From Kocuria turfanensis (GTDB lineage: Bacteria; Actinomycetota; Actinomycetes; Actinomycetales; Micrococcaceae), in the NCBI RefSeq assembly GCF_001580365.1, contig NZ_CP014480.1, positions 1,613,008-1,677,007 on the forward strand: DNA of 64,000 nt. Direction: 5' to 3'. A program made the position numbers and the translations under genes. Below, in pieces: positions 18,286 through 33,652 of this stretch (its first letter is position 1; the number at the start of each line of letters is the position of its first letter). The notes under the pieces were generated by a model that saw only the letters and a program-made list of their open reading frames with translations, was not told where the DNA came from and made no database searches.

Positions 18286-18358
18286 GCGCCTGTAGCTCAA
18301 CGGATAGAGCATCTGACTACGGATCAGAAGGTTGGGGGTTCGAATCCCTTCGGGCGCA
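18286..18358 (+). tRNA. tRNA-Arg(ACG)
   Basis: A 73-nt cloverleaf. Acceptor GCGCCTG pairs with CGGGCGC, the D arm is GCTC...GAGC, the anticodon stem TCTGA/TCAGA encloses CTACGGA (anticodon ACG), and the T arm GGGGG TTCGAAT CCC follows. CCA is not encoded. Its 3' 34 bases are the attachment site of the downstream element. Confidence 0.96.
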
Positions 18359-18359
18359 C
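18325..18359 (+). repeat. attL core (35-bp direct repeat)
   Basis: Identical over 35 bp to 33618-33652. It runs from the 3' anticodon stem through the T arm and acceptor end of tRNA-Arg, so integration leaves the tRNA intact. Identity breaks on both sides at the two sites. Confidence 0.95.
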
Positions 18360-18364
18360 AGAGG

Positions 18365-18404
18365 ACAGGCCCCTCACTAGTAGAAATACGAGTGAGGGGC
18401 CTGT
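18365..18404. terminator. Terminator at left end of element
   Basis: A 14-bp perfect stem (18365-18378, 18391-18404) with a 12-nt loop, followed by TTTC. It ends the tRNA transcript and could also stop leftward transcription from the integrase gene. Confidence 0.8.
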
Positions 18405-18429
18405 TTCATGTTAACCGGAACAAGATACG

Positions 18430-18454
18430 CCCACGTTTACCCCACGTTTTCGTC
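18430..18454 (+). promoter_or_regulatory. Candidate integrase arm-type site, left
   Basis: A 25-bp block containing two CCACGTTT units in tandem, just past the integrase stop codon and 71 bp inside attL. It matches 33481-33505 at 22 of 25 bases in the same orientation. Confidence 0.6.
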
Positions 18455-18460
18455 TGGAAC

Positions 18461-19627
18461 CTATCCCCCGAGAGCTTCCAGTGCAGCCGAAACGTCCGGC
18501 GCCACACTGGCCCTCTCCACATAAACACGCCCTGTGATTGCCGGGGACGAGTGCCCCAGTAGAGCCGCCGCGTCGTGGACCGTGGATGACCGTTCCACCA
18601 GGGTCGCCACCGTCTTCCGCAACGCGTGCAGGTTCACCCAGTCCAGGCCGTCCAGGTGCTTCGATGCCCGCGCCGCCCGCCACTGCCGCTGGACGTTGTT
18701 CGTCCACCGCAGCGTGCCTGTACTGCTGGGGAAGACGAGGTCGCCGTCGTTGGGCCATTCCTCAACCGATCGGGCCAGCAACGCATCTGCCACAAAGCCC
18801 GGCACGGTCACCACGCGGAAGCTGCTCGACGTCTTCGGCACCCCCTGCCGCATCACCCCGCCGGCGAGTTGCACCACGGTTCCGTTGATCGTGATCCTGA
18901 CCGGGGTGGCCCCCAGGTCAATGTCGGACCACCGCAACGCCAGCACTTCCCCGATACGGGCGCCGGTCCCCAGCATCACGTCGATGATCGCTGGGAGGTC
19001 CTTTGGGCGGGGGTGGCCTACCTGGTCGGGGTCGCTCACGTAGGCCCGCACCCCGGCACGCAGTCGGTGGACTTCCTCGATCGTCAAAGCCCTAGGTTCG
19101 GCCTTCTCCCCCGCGGGGAGCCTGGCCCCGGTCACCGGGTTCACGGCCACCGCACCGCGTTGAACGGCGAGCGAGAAAGCCCCCAGGAGCACCACACGGG
19201 CGTGCTTAGCCTGCCCTGGCCTGGTGGCCGCCTCCTTCCCCAGGAAGGTGTGCAGGCGATCCGTGGTGGCCTCCCACAACTCCACACCGCCGAGCCCGGG
19301 CACCACGATGTTCTCAGCGACCGCCTTATACCGGGCGAGGGTCTGAGGGCGTCGCCTCCCGGACTGCTCCACGTCGACCAGCCATACGGCGAGGAGGTCC
19401 CGGACAAGGGTGGTGGACGTGATCGTGTTTCCCGCCCCGGCCCCGCGTTCCTTCAACCGCTGCTCCAGGGCCCGTTTCGCGGCGGACTGTGAGGTGCCAG
19501 TGGCCTCTATCTGACGGGTAGTGCCCGTGGCGTCCCGGTAGCGGGCACGGGCCCTCACCTTCCGGTGGCCGAGCTGTGTGTAGGCGACTTCCCCGAGCTC
19601 ACCGATCCCTAATCTAGGACGCGCCAT
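18461..19627 (-). CDS. int: Tyrosine recombinase integrase of the element
   Basis: A 388-residue tyrosine recombinase. The N-terminal arm-binding region (1-65) contains the AP2/integrase-type segment YRDATGTTRQIEATG. A SAM-like core-binding domain (65-165) and a catalytic domain follow: GTGARIGEVLALRWSDID has the first Arg, LHALRKTVATLVE the HxxR, and LGHSSPAITGRVYV the nucleophile Tyr. It should integrate the element at tRNA-Arg. Its start overlaps the end of the upstream repressor gene by 14 bp, so both are co-transcribed. Confidence 0.95.
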   Translation of the reverse strand: MARPRLGIGELGEVAYTQLGHRKVRARARYRDATGTTRQIEATGTSQSAAKRALEQRLKERGAGAGNTITSTTLVRDLLAVWLVDVEQSGRRRPQTLARYKAVAENIVVPGLGGVELWEATTDRLHTFLGKEAATRPGQAKHARVVLLGAFSLAVQRGAVAVNPVTGARLPAGEKAEPRALTIEEVHRLRAGVRAYVSDPDQVGHPRPKDLPAIIDVMLGTGARIGEVLALRWSDIDLGATPVRITINGTVVQLAGGVMRQGVPKTSSSFRVVTVPGFVADALLARSVEEWPNDGDLVFPSSTGTLRWTNNVQRQWRAARASKHLDGLDWVNLHALRKTVATLVERSSTVHDAAALLGHSSPAITGRVYVERASVAPDVSAALEALGG

Positions 19628-20126
19628 CGCCGTTCCCTACCTCATAGCGCCAGGGCAGGTCCGCCACATCCCCCTGATCGATGTCCCCTGCTTCCCAGTC
19701 GGCGACGAACTGGATCCTACGGTTTAAGTCACTGGAGACGTCTGCAAGCGCCAAGCCGTACCCCTCCATCTTGAGGTCTGTCAGCTGCTCCCGAGTGAGC
19801 CCGGGTATCTGCAATCGCTCTAGAAGGGCTACGCGCACAGGCTGGTCTCCACCAAGGTCCACTTCCTGCACGTCATACCCGGGGTCCAGGAGATCCGCAA
19901 TCGTCATGCCGGTCCCTATGGCTATCGCGACAAGGTCGCTGATCCCAAAAGCCCTTTTGCCGGCCTCGGCTTGGTGCACAGCTTGACGGGACCACGCTCG
20001 CCCAGCGCTCCCAATCCGGCGGCCCAGCTCAGCTTGGCTGATGTTCTCCTGTTCGCGGTACTTGGTGAGGTTCCAACCCACGATCTGCTCCAACGTGGCG
20101 CGGTTTGGACGGAGCTTTTCCGGCAT
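19614..20126 (-). CDS. Xre-family HTH repressor
   Basis: A 170-residue protein. The N-terminal helix-turn-helix (residues 15-75) contains SQAELGRRIG and the recognition helix SRQAVHQAEAGKRAF. The C-terminal half (about 85-170) has no recognised domain. Its position as the first leftward gene, divergent from the AlpA-like gene and directly upstream of int, matches the master repressor of temperate phages and phage-inducible islands. A palindrome and promoter-like hexamers lie in the 121-bp divergent gap. Confidence 0.85.
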   Translation of the reverse strand: MPEKLRPNRATLEQIVGWNLTKYREQENISQAELGRRIGSAGRAWSRQAVHQAEAGKRAFGISDLVAIAIGTGMTIADLLDPGYDVQEVDLGGDQPVRVALLERLQIPGLTREQLTDLKMEGYGLALADVSSDLNRRIQFVADWEAGDIDQGDVADLPWRYEVGNGDGAS

Positions 20127-20172
20127 CGTATCCCTTCCTGTTGTGTCGTCTCAGAATGACATGAACGCACAC

Positions 20173-20183
20173 TGTTGACAACA
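20173..20183. promoter_or_regulatory. Palindromic operator over divergent promoters
   Basis: TGTTGACAACA is a 5-1-5 inverted repeat in the gap between the repressor and the AlpA-like gene. It contains TTGACA (20175-20180) as a rightward -35, and TTGTCA on the other strand with CATTCT 17 bp away as a leftward promoter. It is a likely repressor target. Confidence 0.5.
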
Positions 20184-20247
20184 TAGGCGAGACAGTGCAA
20201 GCTAAATCCGACAAGAGCAAGTCACTACGTCGCATCAGGAGCAACAA

Positions 20248-20451
20248 ATGCCTGACCATCACCTGACCCCCAACCCGAACCGGCTACTCGGCATGGCTGA
20301 TCTCGCCGACTACCTCGGAGTTCCCCTGCAAACCGTCCGACGCTGGCGAGTCACCGGATACGGACCTACGGGATTCACCGTCGGCCGGCACGTGAAGTAC
20401 CGCCCGGCCGACGTTGAGAAATGGCTTGACTCTCAGGTCAACGCAGCCTGA
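20248..20451 (+). CDS. AlpA/MerR-like excisionase-type DNA-binding protein
   Basis: A 67-residue single helix-turn-helix of the HTH_17 type: MADLADYLGVPLQTVRRWR followed by the wing TVGRHVKYRPADVEKWL. Such proteins act as recombination directionality factors or as activators of early genes. It is the first rightward gene, divergent from the repressor. AGGAG lies 8 bp before the ATG. Confidence 0.85.
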   Translation: MPDHHLTPNPNRLLGMADLADYLGVPLQTVRRWRVTGYGPTGFTVGRHVKYRPADVEKWLDSQVNAA

Positions 20452-20498
20452 CTGACTCACCCCTCCCCCCACCCCCAAAAAAAGAGACAGGACCCCCC

Positions 20499-20750
20499 AT
20501 GTCCACCACCCAGCACACCCCCACCACCACCGCCCCCACCAATGTCCACGTTGACCGCAGCGGCCCTTTTGACTTCGACGGGCTCCAGTGGGCCGACACC
20601 AACTGCGAGCCCATCGCGGAGTGGAACCGCGACAGCTGGGACCTTTTCGTCTTCGGGGAGGACCTTCCGATCATGCTGGGCGGGCACTCCGACATGACCG
20701 ATCAGGAAGTTCAGGACCTGGCCCGCGAGGCGCTGAACGACGCAGCCTGA
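20499..20750 (+). CDS. Small element protein with a PIAxW...LGG...MTD module
   Basis: An 83-residue protein. A Thr/Pro-rich tail of about 15 residues precedes a compact acidic domain. Residues 36-80 match the C-terminal half of the next gene product: PIAxW, a Trp/Leu strand, PIxLGG, then MTDxEVxDxA. No known family is recognised. The shared module suggests an ancestral duplication and a fold that may bind a phage or host partner. Confidence 0.7.
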   Translation: MSTTQHTPTTTAPTNVHVDRSGPFDFDGLQWADTNCEPIAEWNRDSWDLFVFGEDLPIMLGGHSDMTDQEVQDLAREALNDAA

Positions 20751-20846
20751 CCCTGCCTCCCACTACCCACAAAAGAACCCATCAACATCAGCGCGACTCC
20801 ACCAACTGGTGACACCCGCCGGGGCCGCGCACCCACAGGAGGAACC

Positions 20847-21275
20847 ATGAACATCGCCACCGACGACCTGACCCGGGAAGCTCGCCTCCGACGGGCCGCC
20901 AAACGACAGGGACTCACCCTCCATAAGGCACGCACCCGCACCCCCGAGCACCCCGCGTGGGGCACCTACGGGCTCTACGACGGGCACCTGAACTATCTGG
21001 TTGCCGGGAACCCCAACACCGGCTTTGGTCTGTCCCTGGAGGACGTGGAAACGGCCCTGCACGACGGCGACCAGATCCACGTTGACCGCACCACCGATGG
21101 TGAGGGCCTCACGTTCGACGACACGCACGACCAGCCCATCGCCAAGTGGGTCGGCCCGTGGTGGTACCTGTACCTCCCGTGGGATGAGGACCCCATCACG
21201 CTGGGCGGCGTCCGCAACATGACTGATGATGAGGTCCGCGACATGGCCCACCAGAAGCTCGGGTGGTCGAAGTGA
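20847..21275 (+). CDS. Unknown two-domain element protein
   Basis: A 142-residue protein. The N-terminal part (residues 8-70, LRRAAKRQGLTLHKARTR then YGLYD and GFGLSLEDVE) resembles a short unit common in actinobacterial plasmid and phage proteins. The C-terminal part (85-140) is homologous to the 83-residue upstream protein. AGGAGG is 6 bp before the ATG. Its stop overlaps the GTG start of the following gene. Confidence 0.75.
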   Translation: MNIATDDLTREARLRRAAKRQGLTLHKARTRTPEHPAWGTYGLYDGHLNYLVAGNPNTGFGLSLEDVETALHDGDQIHVDRTTDGEGLTFDDTHDQPIAKWVGPWWYLYLPWDEDPITLGGVRNMTDDEVRDMAHQKLGWSK

Positions 21276-21754
21276 ACATCAGGTCGTTCTCCGGAACCCA
21301 CGCTTACCAGGACAACTGCGTTCGGAACTCGGTCTTCGACGCGTGGTTCGAGCACCTCGGTGCTGACGCCTTCGTTGAGCGCCTAGCGGCACAGGTCGCC
21401 GGCACCACCACGGCCGCCCTCGAGCGCGGCAACTGCCCGCGTTGCCTGGACCCGCTGCCGACCGAGCACCCCGGAGCAGGCTCCCGGATCACCCGGTGTC
21501 GATGCATCCCCGTCTGTTCTCAATGTGGAAGGGACGAGGGGTGGCAGGCATGGAGGTTCCAAGGCATCAGTCGCCTTGACCAGTGGCCGGTATCCAAGGG
21601 TGCGATCACCAGGCGGGAGAACATTGTCGCCCGCGAAGTGAGCCCAGTCGTCGGCCTGGTGGTCGGTGACGGGGTCCTCACCGAGCAGGGCGTGGGCACC
21701 CTCGATCTGACACCCCGGTCGGGCGGTTGGGCTGAATTGGGAGTGGACATGTGA
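21272..21754 (+). CDS. Cys-rich element protein with zinc-finger-like region
   Basis: A 160-residue protein. Cysteines cluster in the middle: NCPRCLD, then TRCRCIPVCSQCG, giving a CxxC...CxC...CxxC pattern consistent with zinc binding. The N- and C-terminal thirds are not recognised. GTG at 21272 overlaps the preceding stop codon (GTGA); a GTG at 21263 is also in frame. Confidence 0.65.
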   Translation: MNIRSFSGTHAYQDNCVRNSVFDAWFEHLGADAFVERLAAQVAGTTTAALERGNCPRCLDPLPTEHPGAGSRITRCRCIPVCSQCGRDEGWQAWRFQGISRLDQWPVSKGAITRRENIVAREVSPVVGLVVGDGVLTEQGVGTLDLTPRSGGWAELGVDM

Positions 21755-22107
21755 AGCGCATGCAGGCTGCGAAGGAGTGACTGGAACCCTCCCGATTGTG
21801 GCCCCTGCTACCTGCGTGGTGGTGGGGGCCGCTCTCCAGCAGTACGCCGAATGACCCTTGCATCGCTTCATAACACGTAACACTGAAAGTTTTTTCGGCA
21901 CGCCGCTACCTCGAACTAGCTTCCATAAGCAGGCATATGCATCCAAAAGAGGGTCAATTGTTCCTAATGCAGGCGATCGCAGGAACCGCGGAATTCCGCG
22001 CTCACTGGCCTATCTGGCGGCTGATCACCCAACAAGTGGGATGGGTCCGGGATACTGGAGATGTGCACGAGGAAAGCCCTCAATGCCTTTGAAACTGGGA
22101 GACCAAA
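21755..22107. other. A/T-rich non-coding region upstream of the replication operon
   Basis: No convincing gene in 353 bp. A G/C-rich hairpin-like segment (about 21798-21832) follows the previous gene. Then comes the most A/T-rich stretch of the element, including AAAGTTTTTTC near 21890 and three scattered GCAGGC hexamers (near 21763, 21933 and 21968). It could hold a promoter or replication origin for the RepA-like operon that follows; neither is proven. Confidence 0.4.
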
Positions 22108-22335
22108 GTGGTACAAGACGCCACCGCCAGACAGGCCCACTCCGCGCTCGGGGTTGCTACCCGCCTTCATGGGGCGCATTCCCCCGAAGCGTTCGCCGCC
22201 CGCCGCGCCTACCGCACCATCCGCCTCGCCATACAGATCGGCGCCGTACGGGACGAGATCAACGGGTTCAACGCCGACGAACGCGGCATCCTCCTTACCG
22301 CCATCGACGGTCACGAGGAGATCCCTAATGAGTAG
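22108..22335 (+). CDS. Small helical element protein
   Basis: A 75-residue, mostly alpha-helical protein rich in Ala and Arg (AARRAYRTIRLAIQIG), with no recognised domain. GTG start. Its end overlaps the next gene by 8 bp, beginning a run of seven genes that overlap by 4-8 bp up to 25253. Confidence 0.65.
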   Translation: MVQDATARQAHSALGVATRLHGAHSPEAFAARRAYRTIRLAIQIGAVRDEINGFNADERGILLTAIDGHEEIPNE

Positions 22336-22831
22336 ATCCCCCCAGGACATGAAAACGGCCCCGGTGCACGTCGCCAAACAGAACACCGGAGCCGCAGCCC
22401 CAGCCGCTACCAACGAACAGGGACACGTGAACTCTACGACCCATTCTACCGCCGAATACACCCCCATGGGGCGTGCACCCGGTCATGAGATGACCCCGGA
22501 GGCCGTCGAGGACATTGCTATCCGGCGGATCTTCGACGGTGATCCGTTGGCGCTTGCCTGCCACCGTCTCGGCCTCGAATCCCGGGCCCAGCCACAGCCC
22601 ATGCGCCTTCACCCCGAAGACGTGGACCTCATAGCCCAACAGGTCGTGGTGCTGCTGTCCCTGGGACAGGAGTCCGTTCAAACTGCTCGGGCTGCCCAGA
22701 AAGGCGCCGGCCGTTACACCGGGACTGCCCTCGGCGACCGCGCCAATACCGACCGCACCAACGACCCGTACCCGACCCACACGGCACAGGAGCTGAACGA
22801 GATCGAGACCACGCGGGGTGCAGCGGCATGA
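22328..22831 (+). CDS. Unknown element protein upstream of RepA-like ATPase
   Basis: A 167-residue protein. The first 60 residues are polar and low-complexity. Residues 65-140 look folded and helical (TPEAVEDIAIRRIFDGDPLALACHRLG and DVDLIAQQVVVLLSLGQ). No family is recognised. The ATG overlaps the previous gene by 8 bp; its stop overlaps the ATG of the ATPase gene by 4 bp, so the two products are likely made together. The upstream open frame to 22061 is rejected because it reads through the previous gene. Confidence 0.65.
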   Translation: MSRSPQDMKTAPVHVAKQNTGAAAPAATNEQGHVNSTTHSTAEYTPMGRAPGHEMTPEAVEDIAIRRIFDGDPLALACHRLGLESRAQPQPMRLHPEDVDLIAQQVVVLLSLGQESVQTARAAQKGAGRYTGTALGDRANTDRTNDPYPTHTAQELNEIETTRGAAA

Positions 22832-23988
22832 GCGATTTCAACGAGGCCACGATCCCCGACCCGCTTGACCTGGCGTTCTCCGCCAGGTGGCTCACGGCCC
22901 AGGACTTCCCTGCTGTTGAGTACGTTGTCCCGGGAATCATCCCCGAGGGGCTGACCTTGCTCACGGCCGCGCCGAAGATTGGTAAGTCGTGGCTGGTCCT
23001 AGGGCTTGGAGTGGCAGCCGCTACCGGGGGATACGCATTCGGCAGCATTCCAGTGGGTCGACGCCCGGTGCTTTACCTCGCCCTCGAGGATGGCCAGCGG
23101 CGCCTTCAGTCCCGCCTGCGCACGATCGGTGTGGATGACGGGCCGCCCGACCTGACCTTCATGACGACCGTTCCCGCTGGGCCCATCGCCACTATCGAGG
23201 CGTTCCTGGAGCGCCACGGTGAGCGGAACCCCTTGATCGTCCTTGACACCCTGGGGAAGGTGCGGCCCGTCAACGGCGGCAACGACCAGTATCAGCGCGA
23301 CTACCAGCAGATGTCCGTGCTCAAGGAACTCGTGGACGCCAAACCAGGGTCTTCCCTCATCATCGTCCATCACACCAAGAAGGCAGAGACCACGGACTTC
23401 CTTGACAGCGTCTCGGGCACTCAGGGCCTCGCCGGCGCCGCTGATTCGATCCTCGTTCTCCGCCGGTCCCGCCACGAACAGGACGCCACGCTGAACGTCA
23501 CCAGCCGTGACGCCGCGGAGGGCGAGTACGCAGTCCGGTTCGACTCGACCACCGGGACATGGGCGCTCGATGGGACGACTCTGGTTGACGCCGCACAGCG
23601 GGTGGAGGAACGCCGATCCACCGAAGGCGTCGGGGATGAGATGGCTGAACTCGTCAGGGTCGTCAACCGTCATCCCGACGGCATTAGGCGGAAGGACCTG
23701 GAGGCCCTGGTGCACATGGAGCCCGGGAGCCTTGGTGTCTACCTACGCCGGGCTACAGAGGCCGGGCGAATCACCAACCCGAGAAGGGGCATCTACGCCC
23801 CTGTCACAACCGTTACAAGTGTCACGATCCCCGGGGATCCATCCACCAATGTGACAGATGTAGCAGATGTAACAACAGATATTTGGGGCTCCGAGCCTCA
23901 CTCAGCCTGCGTACACGGCCTCGCCGACGGCGACTGCTTCCAGTGCATGTCCGAGGATCTGCTTCGACAGGCGGGTGACGCCGCATGA
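22828..23988 (+). CDS. RepA-like AAA ATPase (replicative helicase family) with C-terminal winged helix
   Basis: A 386-residue protein. The RecA-fold ATPase core (about 25-230) has Walker A APKIGKSW, Walker B LIVLDTL and the sensor segment IIVHHTKK, as in RepA/AAA_25 hexameric helicases of plasmids and phages. A probable winged helix (about 265-320) follows, then a tail with Cys residues (CVHGLADGDCFQC). It probably unwinds or loads at the element's own origin. No primase gene is obvious nearby. Both ends overlap neighbours by ATGA. Confidence 0.85.
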   Translation: MSDFNEATIPDPLDLAFSARWLTAQDFPAVEYVVPGIIPEGLTLLTAAPKIGKSWLVLGLGVAAATGGYAFGSIPVGRRPVLYLALEDGQRRLQSRLRTIGVDDGPPDLTFMTTVPAGPIATIEAFLERHGERNPLIVLDTLGKVRPVNGGNDQYQRDYQQMSVLKELVDAKPGSSLIIVHHTKKAETTDFLDSVSGTQGLAGAADSILVLRRSRHEQDATLNVTSRDAAEGEYAVRFDSTTGTWALDGTTLVDAAQRVEERRSTEGVGDEMAELVRVVNRHPDGIRRKDLEALVHMEPGSLGVYLRRATEAGRITNPRRGIYAPVTTVTSVTIPGDPSTNVTDVADVTTDIWGSEPHSACVHGLADGDCFQCMSEDLLRQAGDAA

Positions 23989-24137
23989 ACCCGCTGAAGG
24001 CTTACAAGCGGGTGCCCGACAACGACGGGCACCTCATCCCGATCACCGGCCGGTGGTGCCCCGCCTGCCGTTACCCCCTACACCCCGCATTGGCGGAGCC
24101 CATCCACCCCTGCTGCGGACACCAGGGGAACCGATGA
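23985..24137 (+). CDS. 50-residue zinc-ribbon-like protein
   Basis: A very small gene read directly from the bases: ATG overlaps the ATPase stop (ATGA) and its own stop overlaps the next ATG. The product contains RWCPACRYPLHP and HPCCGHQ, a CxxC plus CC pattern that could bind one zinc. Function unknown. Confidence 0.65.
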   Translation: MNPLKAYKRVPDNDGHLIPITGRWCPACRYPLHPALAEPIHPCCGHQGNR

Positions 24138-24421
24138 AGCGCACCGGACTCCCCGATCCCGTGGAACTGGCCGAAGCGATCGACGCACTCGGGCGATCCA
24201 CCGGGTACCCGTTGTGGGGAAGCCGCCTTGCCCTCACCCAAGGCAACGTCGCGGTGGCCTACCGCGGCTACCTGGAGCACCGCCGGCTGGTCAACGCCCG
24301 CATCATCCCTCGGATCGACGCAGCCACCAGTGATGTCTTCGACGGACTTGACCCCACCGAACTGCTCCGCCGACAAGCGGCACTCCCCACTCGCGCCGAC
24401 ACGAAAGGCCCCCGCCGATGA
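24134..24421 (+). CDS. Small element protein, unknown
   Basis: A 95-residue helical protein (PVELAEAIDALGRSTGYPLWGSRLA...) without recognised domain. The ATG at 24134 overlaps the previous stop by 4 bp, so the longer open frame upstream is not used. Its stop overlaps the ATG of the next, strongly basic, small gene. Confidence 0.65.
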   Translation: MKRTGLPDPVELAEAIDALGRSTGYPLWGSRLALTQGNVAVAYRGYLEHRRLVNARIIPRIDAATSDVFDGLDPTELLRRQAALPTRADTKGPRR

Positions 24422-24546
24422 GCCACAAGACCCTTGACCCCCGACGAGCCGACGACTGGCCCACGCGCCGCCGCAAGGCCCGGAAACGGGCGCACAAGCC
24501 CTGCCAGGACACCAAGCGGGACACCAGGAGAGGACGAGACCGGTGA
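24418..24546 (+). CDS. 42-residue highly basic protein
   Basis: ATG overlaps the previous stop and its own stop overlaps the GTG of the next gene. About 40 percent of residues are Arg or Lys (for example TRRRKARKRAHK), so it should bind nucleic acid or acidic protein. No family is recognised. Supported mainly by the unbroken chain of overlapping starts. Confidence 0.55.
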   Translation: MSHKTLDPRRADDWPTRRRKARKRAHKPCQDTKRDTRRGRDR

Positions 24547-25253
24547 GCCGACGCGAGGACATCCTCGCCACCGAAGCCCGGGTCCTAGAACTCCGCGCCC
24601 AGGGCAAAACGGTGGAAGAGATCGCAGCAGACCCGTCCGTCAGCATCACTACGTCGTCCGGCGTCTCCAAAGCCCTACGGCGGGCACTGGAGAAGGACCG
24701 ATCAGTGGCCGTAGGCGCCTATCGCAGTTACGCGTGGCAGGAGCTGGACGAGATCAACCGGCAGACCGTCGCAATCCTCGAATCCCCCACCGCCTCTGAT
24801 GGAGACAGGCTCAGAGCACTGGACCTCCGTCGGCGGGTACTAACCGACCGCGGGGAGCTCATCGGCTACGGGAAAGCCCTGGAACGTGCCCACGCAGCTG
24901 CTGAGGCCGAGATCTCAGAGATGCCCGATGCTGGCCCAGGGTTCCTCAACGTCGTGTCGCTAGACGGCGCCCCCACCGAGGTGCTCCCCCGCGAGTTCGA
25001 AGCCGTGGGCGTGATCCCGCCGGACACCGTGCTCATCCTCGTGGACCCAGACTGGCAGCTCCATCCGGCAGGCATCGGGGTGTTCAGCCGGGGTGGGAAG
25101 CTGAAGCGGGGCAACACCTTGCTCCGCTGCGAACCCGAAGAGCTAGACCCGTTCCTCGAGTGGCGCCGGATGCAAAGGGACGAGCGGCACGCACAGGCAC
25201 GTGCGGCACGAGGGCTGCCCTGTGCGGACACTGATTCGATTGTCGCCCCGTAG
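24543..25253 (+). CDS. HTH protein with terminase-small-subunit-like features
   Basis: A 236-residue protein. The N-terminus has a homeodomain-like helix-turn-helix (residues 8-55, RVLELRAQGKTVEEIAADP). A helical segment follows (60-120, YAWQELDEINRQTVAIL... then LRALDLRRRVLTDRGELIGY) that resembles the oligomerisation region of phage small terminases. The C-terminal 110 residues are unknown. A small terminase would let a satellite redirect helper packaging, but a transcription regulator is equally possible. Last gene of the early operon; a strong terminator follows. Confidence 0.6.
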   Translation: MSRREDILATEARVLELRAQGKTVEEIAADPSVSITTSSGVSKALRRALEKDRSVAVGAYRSYAWQELDEINRQTVAILESPTASDGDRLRALDLRRRVLTDRGELIGYGKALERAHAAAEAEISEMPDAGPGFLNVVSLDGAPTEVLPREFEAVGVIPPDTVLILVDPDWQLHPAGIGVFSRGGKLKRGNTLLRCEPEELDPFLEWRRMQRDERHAQARAARGLPCADTDSIVAP

Positions 25254-25270
25254 CCCTACGAGTACCCATA

Positions 25271-25388: not shown

Positions 25389-26309
25389 ATGAACACCCAG
25401 CAGGTCATGAATGAACTCGCTAGACACGAAGACCCTGAGCGCCTAGTGAGAATCCTGGACTCATGTGGTGGACGATCAACGACGAAGGACCTCGCCTCCG
25501 AAATGGGGGAACACCCGGCCTACATCGCCGAAATAACGCGATACCTCGTCGAACTCGGCTTGGTGGAGCCAGATGAAAGTTTGGCAGGTGATGAGGTGAG
25601 CCTGACGGGTTACGGGCGCTCCGTGGTGGCGAAGATTGAACAGTCTTTCGCTGCTGGCGGGCGTCGCAGGGAGGTGATCCGTCGTGGCGTGCTTGAAGCC
25701 GCGAGCAACAAGCGGAAGGTAGCTTCTACCGATCTTGCTGATCATTGGAACGGCCCGCCGCTCGAACCCTCACCGGACCACGACGAGATCGTTGAGGCGA
25801 TTAGATTCCTCTTGGACGCACGCCTAATAACGGCAACCAGAGTGTGGGGAGGCGCCTTTTCCAGCTTCGGCATCGAGCCCGCGGGTCAAGATGCTCTGGA
25901 CCAGCGTCGCCGGCTCGTCACCCCCGAGTCTTCTTCGACTTTCAATGACTACCGGGACCAGTCGAACAACCTTACTCAGTACGGCGGGAACATAGGCGCA
26001 GTAGGGATGGGAAATCGAAACACCATCACAGGAACCGTGACTCTCGGCCCCCATGAAGTGGAGCGGGTCCGAGCGGATCTTAAGACGGCCTTGGAACTAG
26101 TCCGCGACGTGCCTGAGATCGATCAGCAGATCGTCACCGAGGCGATCGAGGACGCGCTCGAGGAAGTCGAGAAGGACGAGCCGAAGCCGCGCATGATTCG
26201 GCGGTGTGTAGATGAAGGGTTGAAGGCACTGTCGGCCTCGGCAGGCACCGCCGCTGGTGGAACCATCATTGGTCTGCTGCAGGGAATCTTGGGGATTGTC
26301 CAGCCATAG
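25389..26309 (+). CDS. Winged-helix protein with Abi-like C-terminal module (cargo gene)
   Basis: A 306-residue protein. The N-terminal third has two winged-helix-like segments (residues 20-65 and 95-160). A Gly/Asn-rich linker (YGGNIGAVGMGNRNTITGTV, about 195-215) precedes a helical C-terminus (VERVRADLKTALELV to EKDEPKPRMIRRCVDEG) ending in a small Gly/Ile hydrophobic segment. The linker-plus-helix layout resembles modules found in AbiTii-like and other bacterial conflict proteins. Transcribed alone between two strong terminators, with AGGAGG about 5 bp before ATG. Codon use is less GC-biased than in its neighbours. Confidence 0.6.
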   Translation: MNTQQVMNELARHEDPERLVRILDSCGGRSTTKDLASEMGEHPAYIAEITRYLVELGLVEPDESLAGDEVSLTGYGRSVVAKIEQSFAAGGRRREVIRRGVLEAASNKRKVASTDLADHWNGPPLEPSPDHDEIVEAIRFLLDARLITATRVWGGAFSSFGIEPAGQDALDQRRRLVTPESSSTFNDYRDQSNNLTQYGGNIGAVGMGNRNTITGTVTLGPHEVERVRADLKTALELVRDVPEIDQQIVTEAIEDALEEVEKDEPKPRMIRRCVDEGLKALSASAGTAAGGTIIGLLQGILGIVQP

Positions 26310-27260: not shown

Positions 27261-27454
27261 CCGCCCCTCGTGAAACGACCACCGTCGGTGTCCGGTTTCC
27301 CGCCTCGCTGCTGTCCCGGGTGGACGAGCTCGCAGCCCACGCCGGACTGACCCGCTCCGGGGCCGTACTGCTGTCCGTCTCCGCCGGAATCGACCCCGTG
27401 GCCCGAGCCGTCGACGCCCACCCCGCCAACACTCCCCAGGAGACCCACCGATGA
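27257..27454 (+). CDS. Ribbon-helix-helix-like small protein
   Basis: A 65-residue protein. TTTVGVRFPASLLSRVDELA gives a beta-strand then helix, and LTRSGAVLLSVSAGI a second helix, the pattern of Arc/CopG DNA-binding proteins. It may regulate the late-looking block. GTG start overlaps the previous stop; its stop overlaps the next ATG. Confidence 0.65.
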   Translation: MTAPRETTTVGVRFPASLLSRVDELAAHAGLTRSGAVLLSVSAGIDPVARAVDAHPANTPQETHR

Positions 27455-28080
27455 ACCTGACCACCATCTCCCCCGACGACACCCTGGCCGAGGCCCGCGA
27501 GCGCCTCACCGAAGCCACTGCTGCCCACCAGGCCGCCCGGGAAGCGTCCGACGCAGCCCGCGCCACCCTGGCCGCATTCGAGGCCGCCGCCGACCGTGGC
27601 GAGGAAGTGGACACCGCTACCTTCACCACGGCGAAGGCTGACCTGTCTCTCAAGTCCCGGCGTACCGCGGCGCTTTCCGCTCAGATTGCCGAGGCTCAGG
27701 AGGCCGTGGATCAGGCGCAGGAAGCCGTCTACGCCGCCCGCCTGACCGACATGGCCGCCACTCTTCCGTCACTGGACAAGCCCCGCCAGAAGGCCGTCAA
27801 GGCGTTCGAGGACTACCTTGCCGCTGTCCGCGCCCAGGACGACGCCGTGCGAGAGCTCTACGCCGAGGCGAAGGGTCTCCCGGACTTCCCCCACGGCAAG
27901 CCCGGCCAGGAGAAGGCGACCGGATGGCCGGCCTACGCCACCTCCTACCAGGGCCAGTGGAAGATCGAAGGCCGCCTCGGGCACGTCCTGATCGACGGCA
28001 AACCCATCAAGCGCCCCGACCTCACCCGTGAGGCTGAGCGCCTTGCAGAAGAACTGGTCCGGCAGGCCCGCACCCGCTAG
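27451..28080 (+). CDS. Coiled-coil element protein
   Basis: A 209-residue protein. Residues 10-115 are an Ala/Glu-rich heptad region predicted to form a long coiled coil (for example EARERLTEATAAHQAAREA and QIAEAQEAVDQAQEAVYAAR). The C-terminal 80 residues are mixed, with several aromatic residues. It could be structural or scaffold-like, given the nearby tailspike, but no family is recognised. ATG overlaps the upstream stop. Confidence 0.65.
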   Translation: MNLTTISPDDTLAEARERLTEATAAHQAAREASDAARATLAAFEAAADRGEEVDTATFTTAKADLSLKSRRTAALSAQIAEAQEAVDQAQEAVYAARLTDMAATLPSLDKPRQKAVKAFEDYLAAVRAQDDAVRELYAEAKGLPDFPHGKPGQEKATGWPAYATSYQGQWKIEGRLGHVLIDGKPIKRPDLTREAERLAEELVRQARTR

Positions 28081-28225
28081 ACCCCACAGACTGCGCCTTC
28101 CTCCTGCTTGGTGGTAGCGGAGGGCGCCACCGCCCCGTCCGTCGCCTGGAAACCGGCGGGCGGGGCACCCATCAAAACCGCTGACGGAGGACAGGCCCGA
28201 GGCACCCACTAACCAGGAGAACCCC

Positions 28226-28441
28226 GTGTCTGCTTCCACAACCGCCCGCCTCGGGTACGCCGTGCTCGGCACCATGCGCCTAGGCGACGACAGCCCGCCC
28301 CGCCTCGAGGACGCCCAGGCGATGCTCCAGGAGACCACCAACGCCCTCGTCCAGGCCATCCGCACCTGCGCCGCCCTTGCCGATAAGGTCGCCAACGCTC
28401 AGGCGATGGTGGACGCTGCCAAGTCGGAAGGTGCCCTCTGA
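28226..28441 (+). CDS. Small protein upstream of the tailspike
   Basis: A 71-residue protein. Its start (TARLGYAVLGTMRLG) resembles the N-terminal repeats of small actinophage tail proteins, and the rest is helical. The last base of its stop is the first base of the tailspike ATG (TGATG), so the two are translationally coupled. AGGAG lies upstream of the GTG start. Confidence 0.6.
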   Translation: MSASTTARLGYAVLGTMRLGDDSPPRLEDAQAMLQETTNALVQAIRTCAALADKVANAQAMVDAAKSEGAL

Positions 28442-29607
28442 TGGCGTACACGCCCCTCTACCCGGATCTGCCCCTCAAGTCGATCCTTACCCCGGACCAC
28501 CTCGCCCACATCGAGAATGGCATCGTCGGGGTGTCCACCGAGGCCCGCACATACGTCGATGACGTCGCTGTGCAGATCCAGGCCGGCCAGGTCACTGACG
28601 CGGCATTCGACTCCGCCGTGGACCGTGCCGCCGCTGACGGCCGCCTCGTCGTCGAAGGCGGGGGCATCGCCCAGGACCTCACCATCACCGAAGCCCAGGA
28701 GGGCGTGTACCGGATCGCGGACGGCACGGGCGAGATTCTGGGCCTGACCGAGGGTAAGAAACTGCCCGCGGCAGCGAAGACGGACTTGGCGTCGGACCTC
28801 ACGAACACCGCCACCGTGGTCGGCAAAGCCCTGTCCGATGGGTACGCCCCCGCCCTGGTGAACGGCAACGTGCCGGCGCGACGCGGCGAGTTCGCCCTGT
28901 CCCCGCTGAACTACGGGGCCGTCGGGGACGGTGTCACCAGCGACCAGGCGGCGCTGACCGCGACCCTCACGGCCGCCGCGGCCGGGGCCGTGATCGATCT
29001 CGGTGGGCGCACCTACAACGTCGGATCCGGGCTCACCATCGGGAAGAAAATCACTCTCCGCAACGGTAGCCTCACCGCAGTCGACGCACGGGTGGCTCTC
29101 CTGAATGCCGCCGGCATCCGCCTCGAAAACGTCCGAGTCTCCCGCTCCGGCACGGCGCGTTCCGGCTCATTCGATAGCGCCTTCACCGTCAACGCCGAAG
29201 AGGCACAGCTGGTGGCCGTCGTGGCCACGACTACGGTCGGGGACGCCTTGCACCTGGCGAACGGCACCTGCAACGGCACCGTCGTCGAAGGCGGCAGCTA
29301 CTCAACCTCAGACCCCAACGAGGCCTACGGCATCCAGCTCCGCTCCGGCGGGACGCACAACTACGACATCCGCATCTCCCGGGCTCGCATCCGGAACACT
29401 GGATACGGCACCGGCATCGGGCTCTACAACTGCTCTCGGTGCACCGTGGAGCACTGCGATGTCCGTGGCATCCGCAGATCCCCGTGGTTCACAGTCACCG
29501 GGTGGACCCTCGTCTCTGGTACGACCTACCGGGCGCTGGACCGCACCGATACGAACTCGAACGCGGTTTACGTGAACGGCGCCGAGTATCGAAAAAACTC
29601 CGATTGA
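28441..29607 (+). CDS. Phage tailspike/minor tail protein, truncated by IS insertion
   Basis: 388 residues remain. The N-terminus (LKSILTPDHLAHIENGI, residues 11-27) is a tail-attachment segment common in actinophage minor tail proteins. From about residue 150, LNYGAVGDGVTSDQAAL and DLGGRTYNVGSGLTIGKK start a right-handed beta-helix of the pectate-lyase-3 type used to bind or cut surface polysaccharide. The frame ends at the TGA of the IS inverted repeat, so the C-terminus is lost. No other tail gene is recognised, so the product would have to join another phage's virion. Confidence 0.75.
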   Translation: MAYTPLYPDLPLKSILTPDHLAHIENGIVGVSTEARTYVDDVAVQIQAGQVTDAAFDSAVDRAAADGRLVVEGGGIAQDLTITEAQEGVYRIADGTGEILGLTEGKKLPAAAKTDLASDLTNTATVVGKALSDGYAPALVNGNVPARRGEFALSPLNYGAVGDGVTSDQAALTATLTAAAAGAVIDLGGRTYNVGSGLTIGKKITLRNGSLTAVDARVALLNAAGIRLENVRVSRSGTARSGSFDSAFTVNAEEAQLVAVVATTTVGDALHLANGTCNGTVVEGGSYSTSDPNEAYGIQLRSGGTHNYDIRISRARIRNTGYGTGIGLYNCSRCTVEHCDVRGIRRSPWFTVTGWTLVSGTTYRALDRTDTNSNAVYVNGAEYRKNSD

Positions 29608-29631
29608 ACCGTCACGGCTTCTCTGCCGTCT

Positions 29632-30579
29632 TTATACGGGCTGCGCCGCCGGCTGGGGCGCAGTGATCTGATCGTAGTGGGCGGCCTCGAACTCGGCAGG
29701 CGGGACGTTGCCGAGGCTGGAGTGCAGCCTGCGGGTGTTGTACCAGTCCACCCAGGCCAGCGTGGAGTACTCGACGTCGCTGACAGTTTTCAGTGGTGCC
29801 TTCACGAACGGGCCCGGGCGGATGCACTCGGTCTTGTAGAGGCCGATGATCGACTCCATGAGGCAGTTGTCGTAGGCGTCCCCGACCGAACCGATCGACG
29901 GGGCCATCCCCTCCAGGGCCAGATGCTCGGTGAAGCGCAGCGCCGTGTACTGGGACCCGGCGTCGTGGTGATGGATCAGCCCCTCCGGCAGCACCAGGCC
30001 CTGACGGGTGCGGTCCCACCGGCCCATTCGCAGGCAGGTGAGCACCAGATCCGTCGTGCGGGTGGTGGCGGCGTTCCAGGACACGATGCGCTGGGCGAAG
30101 ACATCGACGATGAAGGCGACGTAGACGAATCCGGCCCAGGTGCGCACGTAGGTGAAGTCGGCGACCCACACGGTGTTCGGGGCCGCGGCGGTGAAGTTGC
30201 GGTTGAGCAGATCCGACGCCCGCGTCCCATCCTTGGCCGGGATCGTGGTGCGCACCCGCCGGCCTCGGACCACCCCGGCCAGCCCGAGGGAGCGCATCAG
30301 TCGATCCACCGTGCAGTGGGCCACCGCCAGCCCACACCGGCGCAGGTAGGCGGTCATCTTCCGCCGGCCGTAGAGGCCCTCCGGGGTGCCCACGGTGGCC
30401 AGCAGCACATCCATGACGATCGCGTCGCTGACCGTGCGCGCGGCAGGCTGCCGACCGGGTTGCTTCCAGGAGCGGTAGGTTCTCGCGGCGATCGGCACGC
30501 CCTGCTCGCGCAGGGCCGCGCAGATCGACTCGACCGCGTAGCCTTCGGACCTCATCTGGTCGATGAACCCGGCGATCAA
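29632..30579 (-). CDS. IS3-family transposase OrfB (DDE integrase)
   Basis: A 315-residue rve-type catalytic subunit. HTH_21-like region (YGRRKMTAYLRRCGL), then VADFTYVRTW (first Asp), HHHDAGSQYTA (second Asp) and DNCLMESIIGLYKTE (Glu) form the DDE triad. The C-terminus WVDWYNTRRLHSSLGNVPPAEFE is typical. The start TTG overlaps the orfA stop (TTGA). In IS3 elements a frameshifted OrfAB fusion is the active transposase. Confidence 0.93.
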   Translation of the reverse strand: MIAGFIDQMRSEGYAVESICAALREQGVPIAARTYRSWKQPGRQPAARTVSDAIVMDVLLATVGTPEGLYGRRKMTAYLRRCGLAVAHCTVDRLMRSLGLAGVVRGRRVRTTIPAKDGTRASDLLNRNFTAAAPNTVWVADFTYVRTWAGFVYVAFIVDVFAQRIVSWNAATTRTTDLVLTCLRMGRWDRTRQGLVLPEGLIHHHDAGSQYTALRFTEHLALEGMAPSIGSVGDAYDNCLMESIIGLYKTECIRPGPFVKAPLKTVSDVEYSTLAWVDWYNTRRLHSSLGNVPPAEFEAAHYDQITAPQPAAQPV

Positions 30580-30887
30580 CGATTGCGGGGGTCGAGCTCC
30601 CCCGCGAAGAAAATCGAGGCCTTGCGCAGGATCTCGTTGGCCTCGCGCAACCGTTTGTTCTCGGCCTTGAGCCGCTTGATCTCTTCGGCCTCGGCCGTGG
30701 TGACTCCATCCCGGTCCCCGGAGTCGATCTCGGCCTGACGGACCCAGTTGCGCAGCGTCTCCCGCCCCAGATCCAGCTGCTGACCGATCTGCTGACAGGC
30801 CACCGTCAGCGACGGATAGTCCTGCTGGTGCTCGCGCACCATGCGCACCGCTCGGGCCTTGAACTCGGCGTCGTACTTCTTGGGCAT
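30576..30887 (-). CDS. IS3-family transposase OrfA
   Basis: About 103 residues. The N-terminal helix-turn-helix (KKYDAEFKARAVRMV... LGRETLRNWVRQAE) is followed by a leucine-zipper-like helix (EIKRLKAENKRLREANEILRKA). It binds the IS ends. ATG at 30887 (MPKKYD) is preferred; an ATG at 30902 is also in frame. A TTTTC run near the end is a possible slippage point for OrfAB production. Confidence 0.9.
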   Translation of the reverse strand: MPKKYDAEFKARAVRMVREHQQDYPSLTVACQQIGQQLDLGRETLRNWVRQAEIDSGDRDGVTTAEAEEIKRLKAENKRLREANEILRKASIFFAGELDPRNR

Positions 30888-31007
30888 GTCCTCATCCTTC
30901 ATCGAAAGGAAGCGGCATCAAACCCGTGACGGTTCAAGGCGCTTTCCGTGCGCCTAGACCTATCTGCGTTCGTCGATCTAGGTGTTATCCCAAAACTGAC
31001 CCCTGCC

Positions 31008-31439: not shown

Positions 31440-31957
31440 GCGTGCAGGTACGCCACACGCCAGTGTGGATTCGCATGGTTCGCGACCTCAGCCATCTGCG
31501 CGAGTACCATCGCAGCCGTAATGTTGAGTTCGGCGCATGGCTCATCGATGGTTATGGCAGTGCCCCCCTGACGCTTGGCCCACAGATAAATGGGACCGGT
31601 TTCGTCGACGTCAACTTGCAACGCGAGGGCACCCGTCACCCAGTGGAGCACAGCCACTCCATCATCATCAGGGACGATTGATGGGAAGGTCGTGCGCTCG
31701 TCACACGTGTCACGCAAGAAGTCGAGAACTTGCGACTTAGTCCTCCGGCTCAAGCCAAGCGGCCCCAGAACGTCACGGCCAAGCTTTGACATCTTGTTGC
31801 GAACATCGTCAATAACCGGAAGGGGAGGCTGGACAGGCCTCCATGTGAACTCACACGGCTGCACGTGTTCAATGAACGTGTGGGGTCGTTCAACTGGTCG
31901 CGAACCAGCGCTATGCCAGCCGGCCACGGCGAACGGGGCAGAAGCTGTAAGGCTCAT
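31436..31957 (-). CDS. Second gene of attR-proximal cassette, unknown
   Basis: A 173-residue protein. The N-terminal 60 residues are polar. The middle (RNKMSKLGRDVLGPLGLSRR) and the beta-rich FPSIVPDDDGVAVLHWVTGALALQ... LQVDVDETGPIYLWAK look folded. No family is recognised. ATG overlaps the TIGR04255-like stop by 4 bp and its own stop overlaps the third gene's ATG, so the three proteins are produced together. Codon use is less GC-biased than the host. Confidence 0.7.
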   Translation of the reverse strand: MSLTASAPFAVAGWHSAGSRPVERPHTFIEHVQPCEFTWRPVQPPLPVIDDVRNKMSKLGRDVLGPLGLSRRTKSQVLDFLRDTCDERTTFPSIVPDDDGVAVLHWVTGALALQVDVDETGPIYLWAKRQGGTAITIDEPCAELNITAAMVLAQMAEVANHANPHWRVAYLHA

Positions 31958-32724
31958 GACGTCTTCCCCCACTGTCGATGCATCTCTTCACTTGTGTGTA
32001 TGAGGAATTGTGCCACTAGTTCCTCGTGAACTTCCTGCAAAGCGTCGAACGCGTTGCCGTGTTGCAAGTCCACGCCCCGACTCAGACGTAGGGCTAGCAG
32101 CGGGTCCCCATCCTGGTTCGAATCGACCATGACCAGTGAGCTGTATGGGCTCTCCTCGCTTGCCTCTCGTTGCAACCGCACTCCCACGTACTGCTCAGCG
32201 CGTTCCACCTCAGGTGGCGCCATATTCCAGCCGGTGAGGATTCCGACAGCTAGCTCTCCCGCAGTTACAGACGCGATCTCATTGACGTAGTAACACTCCA
32301 CGGCTTGGATCTGGAGCCCGATCTGGTGCTTTGCCAGAGTGTCTGAGAAGTCACTGAACGATGTACGCATTCCTGCAAGGAGCTCTTCAAACCCGGGGTA
32401 CGAAGGGTTGCCCGCGTCATGGAAGCTCCACGTGACCTCAAAACGATCGCCCTGAAAGGACAGAGCTCGGTCCGACCCTTGATAAGTGGTGTATGGCATC
32501 GGCCATGCCTCAGAGTGACTGAGGAAGGACACTGGGCCAGCATCCTCACGACCAGGTAGCGGCGGCCGCTCCGTCACCACGGGATAGTCATGCCCCCATC
32601 GCTGGCTTAATGGTGCGACAGCATGAGGCCCCACCGGCGCGTCGGACGAGAAGTGCAAGGTCAGGGTCACCTGTCGTATGGGAGGTTGCTTGAACTGGAG
32701 ACCCGTCGCTGCGTCGATCGTCAT
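31954..32724 (-). CDS. TIGR04255-like protein, first gene of attR-proximal cassette
   Basis: About 256 residues. PPIRQVTLTLHF, YPVVTERPPLP, and the later LSFQGDRFEVTW followed by YPGFEELLAGM match, from memory, the layout of the sporadically distributed TIGR04255 family (about 250 residues, function unknown, often in variable regions). The ATG at 32724 (MTIDAATG) starts just before the family-like N-terminus; earlier in-frame starts up to 32811 are less likely. It leads a leftward three-gene unit with 4-bp overlaps. Confidence 0.65.
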   Translation of the reverse strand: MTIDAATGLQFKQPPIRQVTLTLHFSSDAPVGPHAVAPLSQRWGHDYPVVTERPPLPGREDAGPVSFLSHSEAWPMPYTTYQGSDRALSFQGDRFEVTWSFHDAGNPSYPGFEELLAGMRTSFSDFSDTLAKHQIGLQIQAVECYYVNEIASVTAGELAVGILTGWNMAPPEVERAEQYVGVRLQREASEESPYSSLVMVDSNQDGDPLLALRLSRGVDLQHGNAFDALQEVHEELVAQFLIHTSEEMHRQWGKTS

Positions 32725-32807
32725 AGCCTCATCGTAAGGGTTGCACGCCCCACCCCCGGGCATCCGCTCCGCCCCCATTTGTGGGAGTGGCGAGCCTGGA
32801 CTTTGCG

Positions 32808-33041
32808 TCACCGCTTACCCCGCTTGTCGGCGCCGCCCCGCGGGTCGTAGATGTTCTGATCGGCCCACTTGTCCAACCAGTCGGAGCGGACACGCCAGTG
32901 ATGGGAACGTCCTTCGCCGACCTTGATGGCCGGCAGGTCGCCTCTGGCGAGATACCGGCGGACCGTTTCCGGGTGTAGGGACAGGATCTCGGCTACCTGC
33001 TGCAACGAGTAGTACTGCCTCTGTGGGACGGGGTCGGGCAC
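32808..33041 (-). CDS. Excisionase-like HTH protein, copy A
   Basis: A 77-residue HTH_17 (MerR/AlpA-like) protein: YYSLQQVAEILSLHPETVRR then the wing AIKVGEGRSHHWRVRSDWLDKW and a basic tail. It is clearly paralogous to the neighbouring upstream gene (33088-33330), with near-identical C-terminal halves. Near attR, it is a candidate recombination directionality factor or local regulator. Confidence 0.8.
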   Translation of the reverse strand: MPDPVPQRQYYSLQQVAEILSLHPETVRRYLARGDLPAIKVGEGRSHHWRVRSDWLDKWADQNIYDPRGGADKRGKR

Positions 33042-33087
33042 GGGTGCTTCCTCTCAAGAACCGCAACGACGAGTACGTGGACAACGG

Positions 33088-33330
33088 TCAGCGCCGCCTT
33101 CGGTTACTTCGCTTGTCCGCGCCGCCTCGAGGGTCGTAGAGGTTGTCTCTGGCCCACTTGTCCAACCAGTCGGAGCGGACCCGCCATTCGTGGTTCCCCG
33201 GTCCTCCAACTTTGATTGCAGGGATCTCCCCTATGGCGAAGTACCGGGCCACCGTCTTGGGGTGGAGGGATAAGAGATCCGCCACTTGTTGCAGGGTGAA
33301 GAACAGCTTGGCTGAGGCCGGCATTGGCAT
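33088..33330 (-). CDS. Excisionase-like HTH protein, copy B
   Basis: An 80-residue paralogue of the adjacent gene: FFTLQQVADLLSLHPKTVAR, AIKVGGPGNHEWRVRSDWLDKW and a longer Arg-rich tail. The DNA of the two genes is also similar, so the duplication is fairly recent. ATG at 33330 has GAAGGAG 7 bp upstream, which rejects the longer frame to 33462. Confidence 0.8.
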   Translation of the reverse strand: MPMPASAKLFFTLQQVADLLSLHPKTVARYFAIGEIPAIKVGGPGNHEWRVRSDWLDKWARDNLYDPRGGADKRSNRRRR

Positions 33331-33480
33331 GGGGGCTCCTTCAGGGGCGGTCAGTGAGACTGCCTGCGGATCTGTCGCGTTGACGGCAGTCTGCAACGAT
33401 CTGCCCGCTCGGTGCCACCGCACGTCTCTCGATAAGAGGTAAGGAGCGCGGCGACACCCCATATCGGGGCTCCCGTCTCC

Positions 33481-33505
33481 CCCACGCTTACCTCACGTTT
33501 TCGAC
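33481..33505 (+). promoter_or_regulatory. Candidate integrase arm-type site, right
   Basis: Matches 18430-18454 at 22 of 25 bases in the same orientation; it lies 112 bp inside attR. In the circular form the two would flank the attP core. The stretch 33331-33712 otherwise holds attR and a terminator but no gene. Confidence 0.6.
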
Positions 33506-33617
33506 GGCTCCCCGCGGAATCGGATGGAACGTCGAGAGCGGGCGGCCCGTGCTACTTCCGCGACATCACGCGGGACATGGCACCCGGCGACACCCGTCGG
33601 ATTCCTCGACGCCAGTA

Positions 33618-33652
33618 CAGAAGGTTGGGGGTTCGAATCCCTTCGGGCGCAC
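33618..33652 (+). repeat. attR core (35-bp direct repeat)
   Basis: Exact copy of the tRNA-Arg 3' end (18325-18359) without the 5' part of a tRNA. It marks the right end of the element. Confidence 0.95.

Follow-up and report, generated by a model that had tools for sequence, protein, structure and literature searches.

A tRNA-integrated, PICI-like element with a probable small terminase gene in Kocuria turfanensis, and its family of small relatives

What kind of mobile element occupies the tRNA-Arg(ACG) gene of Kocuria turfanensis? The window examined here, a stretch of 64,000 nucleotides (NCBI RefSeq assembly GCF_001580365.1, contig NZ_CP014480.1, positions 1,613,008 to 1,677,007), contains at this gene an insertion of 15,328 bp, for which a phage satellite, a decayed prophage and a genomic island have to be weighed. 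From its sequence we propose, with a probability of roughly 0.78, that the element is a tRNA-integrated phage satellite resembling the phage-inducible chromosomal islands (PICIs), of the type that relies on a small terminase subunit (TerS).

Integration site and boundaries

The element is enclosed by two exact direct repeats of 35 bp (18325-18359 and 33618-33652 of the window), the left one being the 3' end of the tRNA gene. In 64 kb, chance would produce about 1e-9 exact 35-mer pairs, and comparison of the left attachment site (attL) region with the 4.16-Mb genome of the strain gave only two matches spanning the repeat (E<=0.001). GC content is 0.643 inside the element and 0.747 in the flanks of the window. 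A site free of the insert was found in two other Kocuria genomes: in G014 (L153) the left flank matches (89%) as far as the tRNA end, and within about 100 bp the match resumes with the right flank (80%); in G006 the tRNA runs directly into the first 37 bases of the right flank (94%), the right flank being unmatched beyond. The site of a third genome, G015, is not clean, its left flank matching to the tRNA end and its right flank only about 2.6 kb further. The exact repeats, the tRNA target, the drop in GC and the insert-free site in G014 and G006 therefore identify an insertion with defined ends. A sequence-only reading of this locus had announced exact 35-bp att repeats in tRNA-Arg and a size of about 15 kb, and both are borne out, the repeats enclosing 15.3 kb of lower-GC DNA.

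General structure of the element

The gene plan given by the same reading was also recovered. Pfam and PHROG searches identified the integrase, a helix-turn-helix (HTH) repressor, an AlpA-type regulator divergent from it (divergence point 20127-20247) and an AAA_25 (RepA-like) ATPase, and the accessory genes expected on the attR side consist of two tandem HTH_17 genes and an overlapping three-gene cassette on the minus strand (Table 1). The ATPase defines the family described below and is presumably its replication protein; its PHROG matches to primase-helicase families fall within the ATPase part of the protein, and none of the scanned open reading frames (ORFs) is listed with a separate primase domain. 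Pfam scans of 21 ORFs of the window (ORF 23975-24421 lying outside the scan) revealed no relaxase or FtsK/TraB domain, and the Pfam and PHROG scans, which included no P4-specific search, listed no P4 alpha primase-helicase, Sid, Psu or delta.

No gene for a capsid, a portal or a large terminase subunit (TerL) was found in the element by PHROG scans and family profiles. To this extent the statement of the sequence-only reading that a tailspike is the only virion gene present holds; it overlooked a probable TerS gene at 24543-25253. The only PHROG match of this gene product is phrog_645, a family labelled 'Rnase E' which is matched by all 15 family members aligned with this protein. In Gordonia phage Zipp (L154:1-3136), the phrog_645 protein is encoded by gene 1, overlapping a gene 2 that is annotated 'exonuclease', yet scores as a large terminase (1e-76). 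The usual position of a TerS gene is directly before that of TerL. The two Zipp genes, annotated 'Rnase E' and 'exonuclease', thus probably encode TerS and TerL, and remote homology together with this phage gene order makes the product of 24543-25253 a probable TerS. Its predicted structure combines an HTH with two long helices and, at the C-terminus, a beta part (mean predicted local distance difference test score, pLDDT, 73.5; predicted template modelling score, pTM, 0.40), and the top four Foldseek matches in the PDB are three Sf6 TerS chains and the phage protein phBC6A51, at E values of 0.18-0.43 that are not significant. Homologues of the gene carry the species names Kocuria sediminis and Kocuria rosea.

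Taken as a candidate PICI, the element shows site-specific integration (direct att repeats and an integrase) and, judging from gene content and orientation, a predicted divergent pair of repressor and AlpA-type regulator before a replication operon. Through the probable TerS it would also possess a packaging-diversion gene of the TerS, Rpp, Cpm or Ppi class, and it is without complete head and tail sets of its own, the virion genes found being the spike and the probable TerS. TerS serves as packaging-diversion gene in many Staphylococcus aureus pathogenicity islands (SaPIs).

No match to the TerL models PF03354 and phrog_9 or to the capsid model PF05065 was obtained in the host's own genome, so a helper phage would probably come from outside it.

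A family of small elements sharing the ATPase

The ATPase, TerS and spike were the genes traced in other collections. The ATPase is present in 4 of 27 Kocuria genomes, and relatives were retrieved from 10 of 395 Micrococcaceae genomes (E<=1e-20) and from 21 of 396 genomes of the order (E<=1e-40), the strain's own genome being included in each count; the closest among named genomes is that of Kocuria dechangensis. A further 77 loci came from IMG/VR (E 1e-3), many of them distant. The search for boundaries at 22 genome loci, that of the window included, gave an accepted repeat at 12, with spans of 5630, 8908, 8992, 9053, 9076, 9627, 9984, 10334, 10568, 12541, 15191 and 15328 bp. Nine of these bounded elements lie at tRNA genes. 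In G372, G737 and G469 the repeat reads EFELYY or EFEMYF followed by a stop, which we take to be the end of glnA.

Three metagenomic contigs of 10-11 kb look like complete circles or, for L026, like an exact tandem: L027 (10,977 bp) and L030 (10,239 bp) have exact 127-bp terminal overlaps, and L026 a 100% repeat with a period of 10,178 bp. All three contain an integrase, the ATPase and a tape-measure protein without any head gene match; TerS was matched in L026 and L030, with no match in L027. Tandem copies that have diverged (80-91% identity) are present in L028 and L029, and the head-to-tail arrangement of the two copies in L029 (1-19815) suggests tandem insertion at one site.

Packaging genes and their exchange

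Genes of the relatives were called with a simple custom script and labelled with profiles made from members of the same set, from which distant genes may escape. Labels were given to 51 elements: 15 carry TerL, portal and capsid, 14 have no head gene but TerS and/or a tail gene, 12 carry a partial head set (several of these being short contigs), and in 10 none of these was found. Membership of the TerS/tail class is partly circular, since G372 (spike) and G711a, L027 and L032 (tape-measure gene) were placed in it by hand. Among the 12 bounded elements, the full head set occurs only in G469 and a partial one in G001, G603, G719 and G737; the window element, G005, G372 and G656 have TerS and/or a tail gene and no head gene, and nothing was found by profile in G318, G635 and G721, G635 having a neck-protein match.

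A strict rule (TerS match, no TerL, portal or capsid match) retains ten elements: that of the window, G005, G018, G656, G688, G711b, L026 and L028-L030. Eight of the ten possess a tail gene, or five of seven lineages when L026 and L028-L030, near relatives from two metagenomes, are counted once. These are the spike in the window, a GDSL tail protein in G005, and tape-measure genes in G688, G711b and L026 (by PHROGs) and in L028-L030 (by profile); no tail gene was found by profile in G018 and G656. The tape-measure genes of the relatives encode 855-1106 amino acids (aa) and match phage tape-measure families over long stretches, the match of G711b being weaker.

In L025, L031, L035-L038, L040, L041, G469 and others, TerL, portal and capsid are found in about 10 kb, accompanied in most of these head-bearing relatives by matches to scaffold or protease and to HNH. 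All 15 full-head elements are without a tape-measure match, and 12 of them lack an unassigned called gene of at least 250 aa. These relatives, mostly of about 10 kb, look like capsid-forming satellites.

In a tree of the ATPase (50 rows), the TerS/tail label needs five changes, at least four of them forced by well-supported branches. The four labels jointly need 20, against a mean of 27.5 after shuffling, and none of 200 shuffles was as low, so the labels are clustered but do not have a single origin. The window element groups with G005 and G018, then with G001, and packaging genes differ within this clade: TerS (phrog_645) and spike in the window, TerS (1496) and the GDSL protein in G005, TerS (1496) in G018 and a capsid gene in G001. 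Such differences between close ATPase relatives indicate that the replication core and the packaging module are exchanged.

Several other observations were made on the relatives. In G719 (L179:9189-10625) TerL is apparently divided between two genes, one for a 249-aa ATPase (phrog_7579, 2e-55) and one of 228 aa with a weak TerL match; capsid and scaffold matches are present and no portal was found. Many head-less members have, downstream of the ATPase, an ORF of about 200-430 aa that appears helical by eye (L026:2445-3176, L032:7627-8424, L189:8715-9515 and others); these ORFs, mostly without detectable homology, are candidates for a fast-evolving capsid-size gene. G359 (L102:9161-14785) encodes a protein with a GmrSD_C domain (PF07510, 2e-6) and a repetitive protein, tail-fibre-like by eye and without PHROG match. 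Finally, an island at a tRNA-Tyr gene of Kocuria G015 (L150:7220-20000) carries an integrase, an HTH gene, another ATPase (by eye) and a homologue of the TerS of the window, then two very large proteins (1389 and >900 aa), presumably defence cargo of BREX/Pgl type.

Tailspike and insertion sequence

The tailspike combines a distinct N-terminal domain with a pectate-lyase-like beta-helix. The reading frame stops at the very first codon of an IS3-type insertion sequence (IS), and nine homologues measure 502-670 aa, against 388 aa here; the spike of the window is therefore truncated, and this copy of the element is probably damaged. The spike is also modular, because eight of the nine homologues share its C-terminal module without its N-terminus, and the ninth, P0026, has the same N-terminal part and a different C-terminus. 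The longest contig listed for P0026 and that listed for P0009, a TerS homologue, both measure 17,344 bp, which suggests that the two genes lie on one contig. The IS is present in six genomic copies, the other five being 100% identical, and a 3-bp target duplication was seen at two of these five.

Accessory genes

The two HTH_17 genes near attR are tandem relatives (70% DNA identity over 242 nt, repeat D1). In the cassette beside them, the TIGR04255 gene has a relative (27% identity, 2e-9) on the Mycobacterium paragordonae plasmid NZ_CP025547, where it is followed by genes of 180 and 142 aa in the same order as here, cassette genes 2 and 3 showing no significant similarity to these counterparts. 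The cassette is possibly a mobile defence or addiction cassette. On the plasmid, the gene set adjoins a MobF relaxase gene. A second AlpA-type match near the far end was also seen in relatives L035 and L038.

Table 1. Features of the element in the window, with positions counted from the first nucleotide of the window.
Feature	Position	Strand	Family match or comment
tRNA-Arg(ACG), integration target	18286..18359	+	ARAGORN; attL is its 3' 35 bp, 18325-18359
Tyrosine integrase, 388 aa	18461..19627	-	PF00589 3e-15; phrog_1 9e-55
HTH repressor, 170 aa	19614..20126	-	PF01381 3.7e-7; phage repressor PHROGs; overlaps integrase start
AlpA/excisionase-type HTH_17 regulator, 67 aa	20248..20451	+	PF12728 9e-11; phrog_66 7e-11; divergent from repressor
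Small ORF, 83 aa	20499..20750	+	No Pfam/PHROG family; shares a BLAST cluster with ORF 20847..21275
ORF, 142 aa	20847..21275	+	No Pfam family; only phrog_37977 at 0.046
ORF, 163 aa, cysteine-containing	21263..21754	+	No Pfam/PHROG family
Possible ORF, 256 aa by mechanical call	22061..22831	+	No Pfam/PHROG family; start uncertain
AAA_25 (RepA-like) ATPase, 386 aa	22828..23988	+	PF13481 1e-23; C-terminal winged-helix-like segment; AbiEi_4 3e-4, below its cut-off
Probable TerS, 236 aa	24543..25253	+	phrog_645 7e-9
ORF, 306 aa, candidate defence gene	25389..26309	+	C-terminal part weakly matches PADLOC PDC-M14B, 3e-6
ORF, 82 aa	26626..26874	+	No Pfam above cut-off, no PHROG
ORF, 129 aa	26871..27260	+	No Pfam/PHROG family
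ORF, 209 aa, helical by eye	27451..28080	+	No Pfam/PHROG; similarly placed ORFs of relatives without detectable homology
Tailspike, cut to 388 aa by the IS	28441..29607	+	PF12218 1e-6; Beta_helix 5e-5; phrog_2234 7e-7
IS3-type IS, 1332 bp	29605..30936	-	orfB 29632-30579; orfA 30576-30902
Accessory cassette gene 3, 143 aa	31008..31439	-	No family
Accessory cassette gene 2, 178 aa	31436..31972	-	No Pfam/PHROG family; PADLOC PDC-M32A at 0.016 only
Accessory cassette gene 1, 285 aa	31954..32811	-	TIGR04255 family, 33.6 bits (cut-off 30)
HTH_17 protein, 77 aa	32808..33041	-	PF12728 1e-12
HTH_17 protein, 124 aa	33088..33462	-	PF12728 1e-9
attR, 35 bp	33618..33652	+	Exact repeat

Alternative explanations

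Loss of the head, tail and lysis genes from an ordinary temperate phage could have left behind an integrase, regulators, a TerS and a partial tailspike. The presence of a tail gene truncated by an IS is in keeping with such a decayed prophage, as are distant ATPase relatives in phage-sized IMG/VR contigs (L052-L056, L059), and two contigs might count against a satellite origin: L033 (17.1 kb, 51% ATPase identity, with TerL, portal and capsid, unbounded) and L074 (23.8 kb, ATPase 44% over residues 17-245). ATPase relatives on IMG/VR contigs above 30 kb do not exceed 41% identity. Full-length prophages in which these genes are flanked by capsid, portal and terminase genes, which the sequence-only reading had named as the sign of decay, were sought; a family of small elements was found instead, with 12 bounded members all of 5.6-15.3 kb. 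Neither the phage DNA search, nor tblastn of TerS and spike, nor the bounded relatives yielded a collinear phage-sized relative. None of 50,697 phage records matched the DNA of the element, and tblastn of the TerS-like gene and the spike against phage records gave no match at 1e-5. The circle-like contigs of 10-11 kb and the integrase-AlpA-ATPase core retained beside unrelated packaging modules argue further against decay, which we regard as improbable. Little credence is likewise given to a genomic island or integrative plasmid-like element, replicated by the AAA_25 protein, moving by other means than phage packaging and using the TerS-like gene as a regulator. The remoteness of the TerS assignment and the occurrence of ATPase relatives in elements that yielded no virion gene, such as G318 (5.6 kb), are compatible with it, whereas packaging genes occur in relatives and no relaxase or FtsK/TraB domain was detected in the 21 scanned ORFs.

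If the element is a satellite, several roles of the lone tail gene come into consideration. Our tentative proposal is that the family comprises tail-customising satellites, which would make no heads, encode their own TerS and build one tail protein into the helper's tail, thereby setting the recognition or entry of the next cell, while the same replication core swaps with capsid-forming plans. The spike or tape-measure protein might instead be a weapon, a decoy disturbing the assembly of helper tails. Interference with tail assembly is known from Tab, of a prophage (PMC10884400), and Tai, of prophages, PICIs and P4-like elements (PMC11364771), but in the available parts of these papers both are inhibitors acting on tail components and are not described as tail proteins. 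Moreover, the tape-measure genes of relatives are long and match phage tape-measure families, as given above, and a satellite without its own tail set depends on working helper tails; a decoy seems rather unlikely. Passing cargo acquired by recombination with helpers, without any role, would account for the different tail genes of close relatives (the spike of the window and the GDSL protein of G005), for the broken gene in the window and for the members in which none was found (G018, G656). It is harder to reconcile with a tail gene in most TerS-positive head-less members and lineages and with the persistence of open frames of 855-1106 aa, and we hold it to be doubtful.

Discussion

For the preferred reading, a PICI-like satellite of TerS type, the following cycle can be proposed. 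An incoming helper phage would relieve the repressor, AlpA would drive excision and the early genes, and the AAA_25 protein would start replication. TerS would then direct the TerL of the helper to satellite DNA, which would fill heads made by the helper, and the particles would leave with helper tails. Less certainly, in the case of intact relatives the helper's tail may incorporate the product of a single tail gene (spike, GDSL tail protein or tape-measure protein), with an influence on which cell is entered; the copy in the window, its spike being cut by the IS, would at best travel with an unmodified helper tail.

Satellites are usually viewed as thieves of heads or tails. Here, one replication and integration core is paired, even within one genus, with a head set, a partial head set, or, where head genes are absent, a packaging selector together with a single tail protein. 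Should this protein be put to use, satellites could determine the destination of their particles independently of the helper. The interest of the element, a probably damaged copy, lies in the family which it opens.

Comparison with known systems

A tRNA-type att is a trait of PICIs, and their replication gene is Pri-Rep. Like SaPIs and classical PICIs, the element has a tRNA-type att, a tyrosine integrase, a divergent repressor and AlpA-type regulator, a presumed replication gene, a probable packaging diversion of TerS type, a size of about 15 kb and accessory genes near one end. It differs from them by its AAA_25 protein in the place of Pri-Rep, its TerS of the phrog_645 family, its tailspike gene and the absence of a recognised capsid-size redirecting gene. 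An integrative conjugative element of the pSAM2 type, characteristic of actinomycetes, would carry a TraB/FtsK-like translocase or a relaxase, neither of which was found by Pfam in the 21 ORFs of the window.

Actinobacterial elements below 15 kb may be satellites (PMC10023795), and satellite families have been listed (PMC11389934). Among the literature matches listed, consisting of titles and abstract openings and covering few subscription papers, there was no account of satellites that lack head genes but possess a tail gene. Capsid-forming PICIs (Alqurainy 2023, as cited in PMC10690885) have TerL, portal and capsid in about 10 kb like some relatives in the family, and their set of TerL, portal, protease and major capsid genes was not found in the window element. 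Candidate PICIs of Mycobacterium (PMC10654092), likewise actinobacterial, were defined by an integrase and a major capsid gene; they have tyrosine integrases in tRNA genes or serine integrases elsewhere, and in some of them helicase, terminase and scaffold genes accompany the capsid gene. The window element is without capsid gene, and that search would miss it; more generally, a class of actinobacterial satellites would escape any satellite search in which a capsid gene is required. The Streptomyces satellites MulchRoom and MiniFlayer (PMC10690885) encode TerS, TerL, portal and capsid and lack primase homologues, whereas a replication-type ATPase but no head gene was found in the window element. 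The 24 phage records that match the ATPase include none from Streptomyces. These two are also actinobacterial, MulchRoom has an integrase and MiniFlayer a tail fiber gene, and the tail fiber of one Streptomyces satellite is thought to attach the satellite to its helper (PMC10690885).

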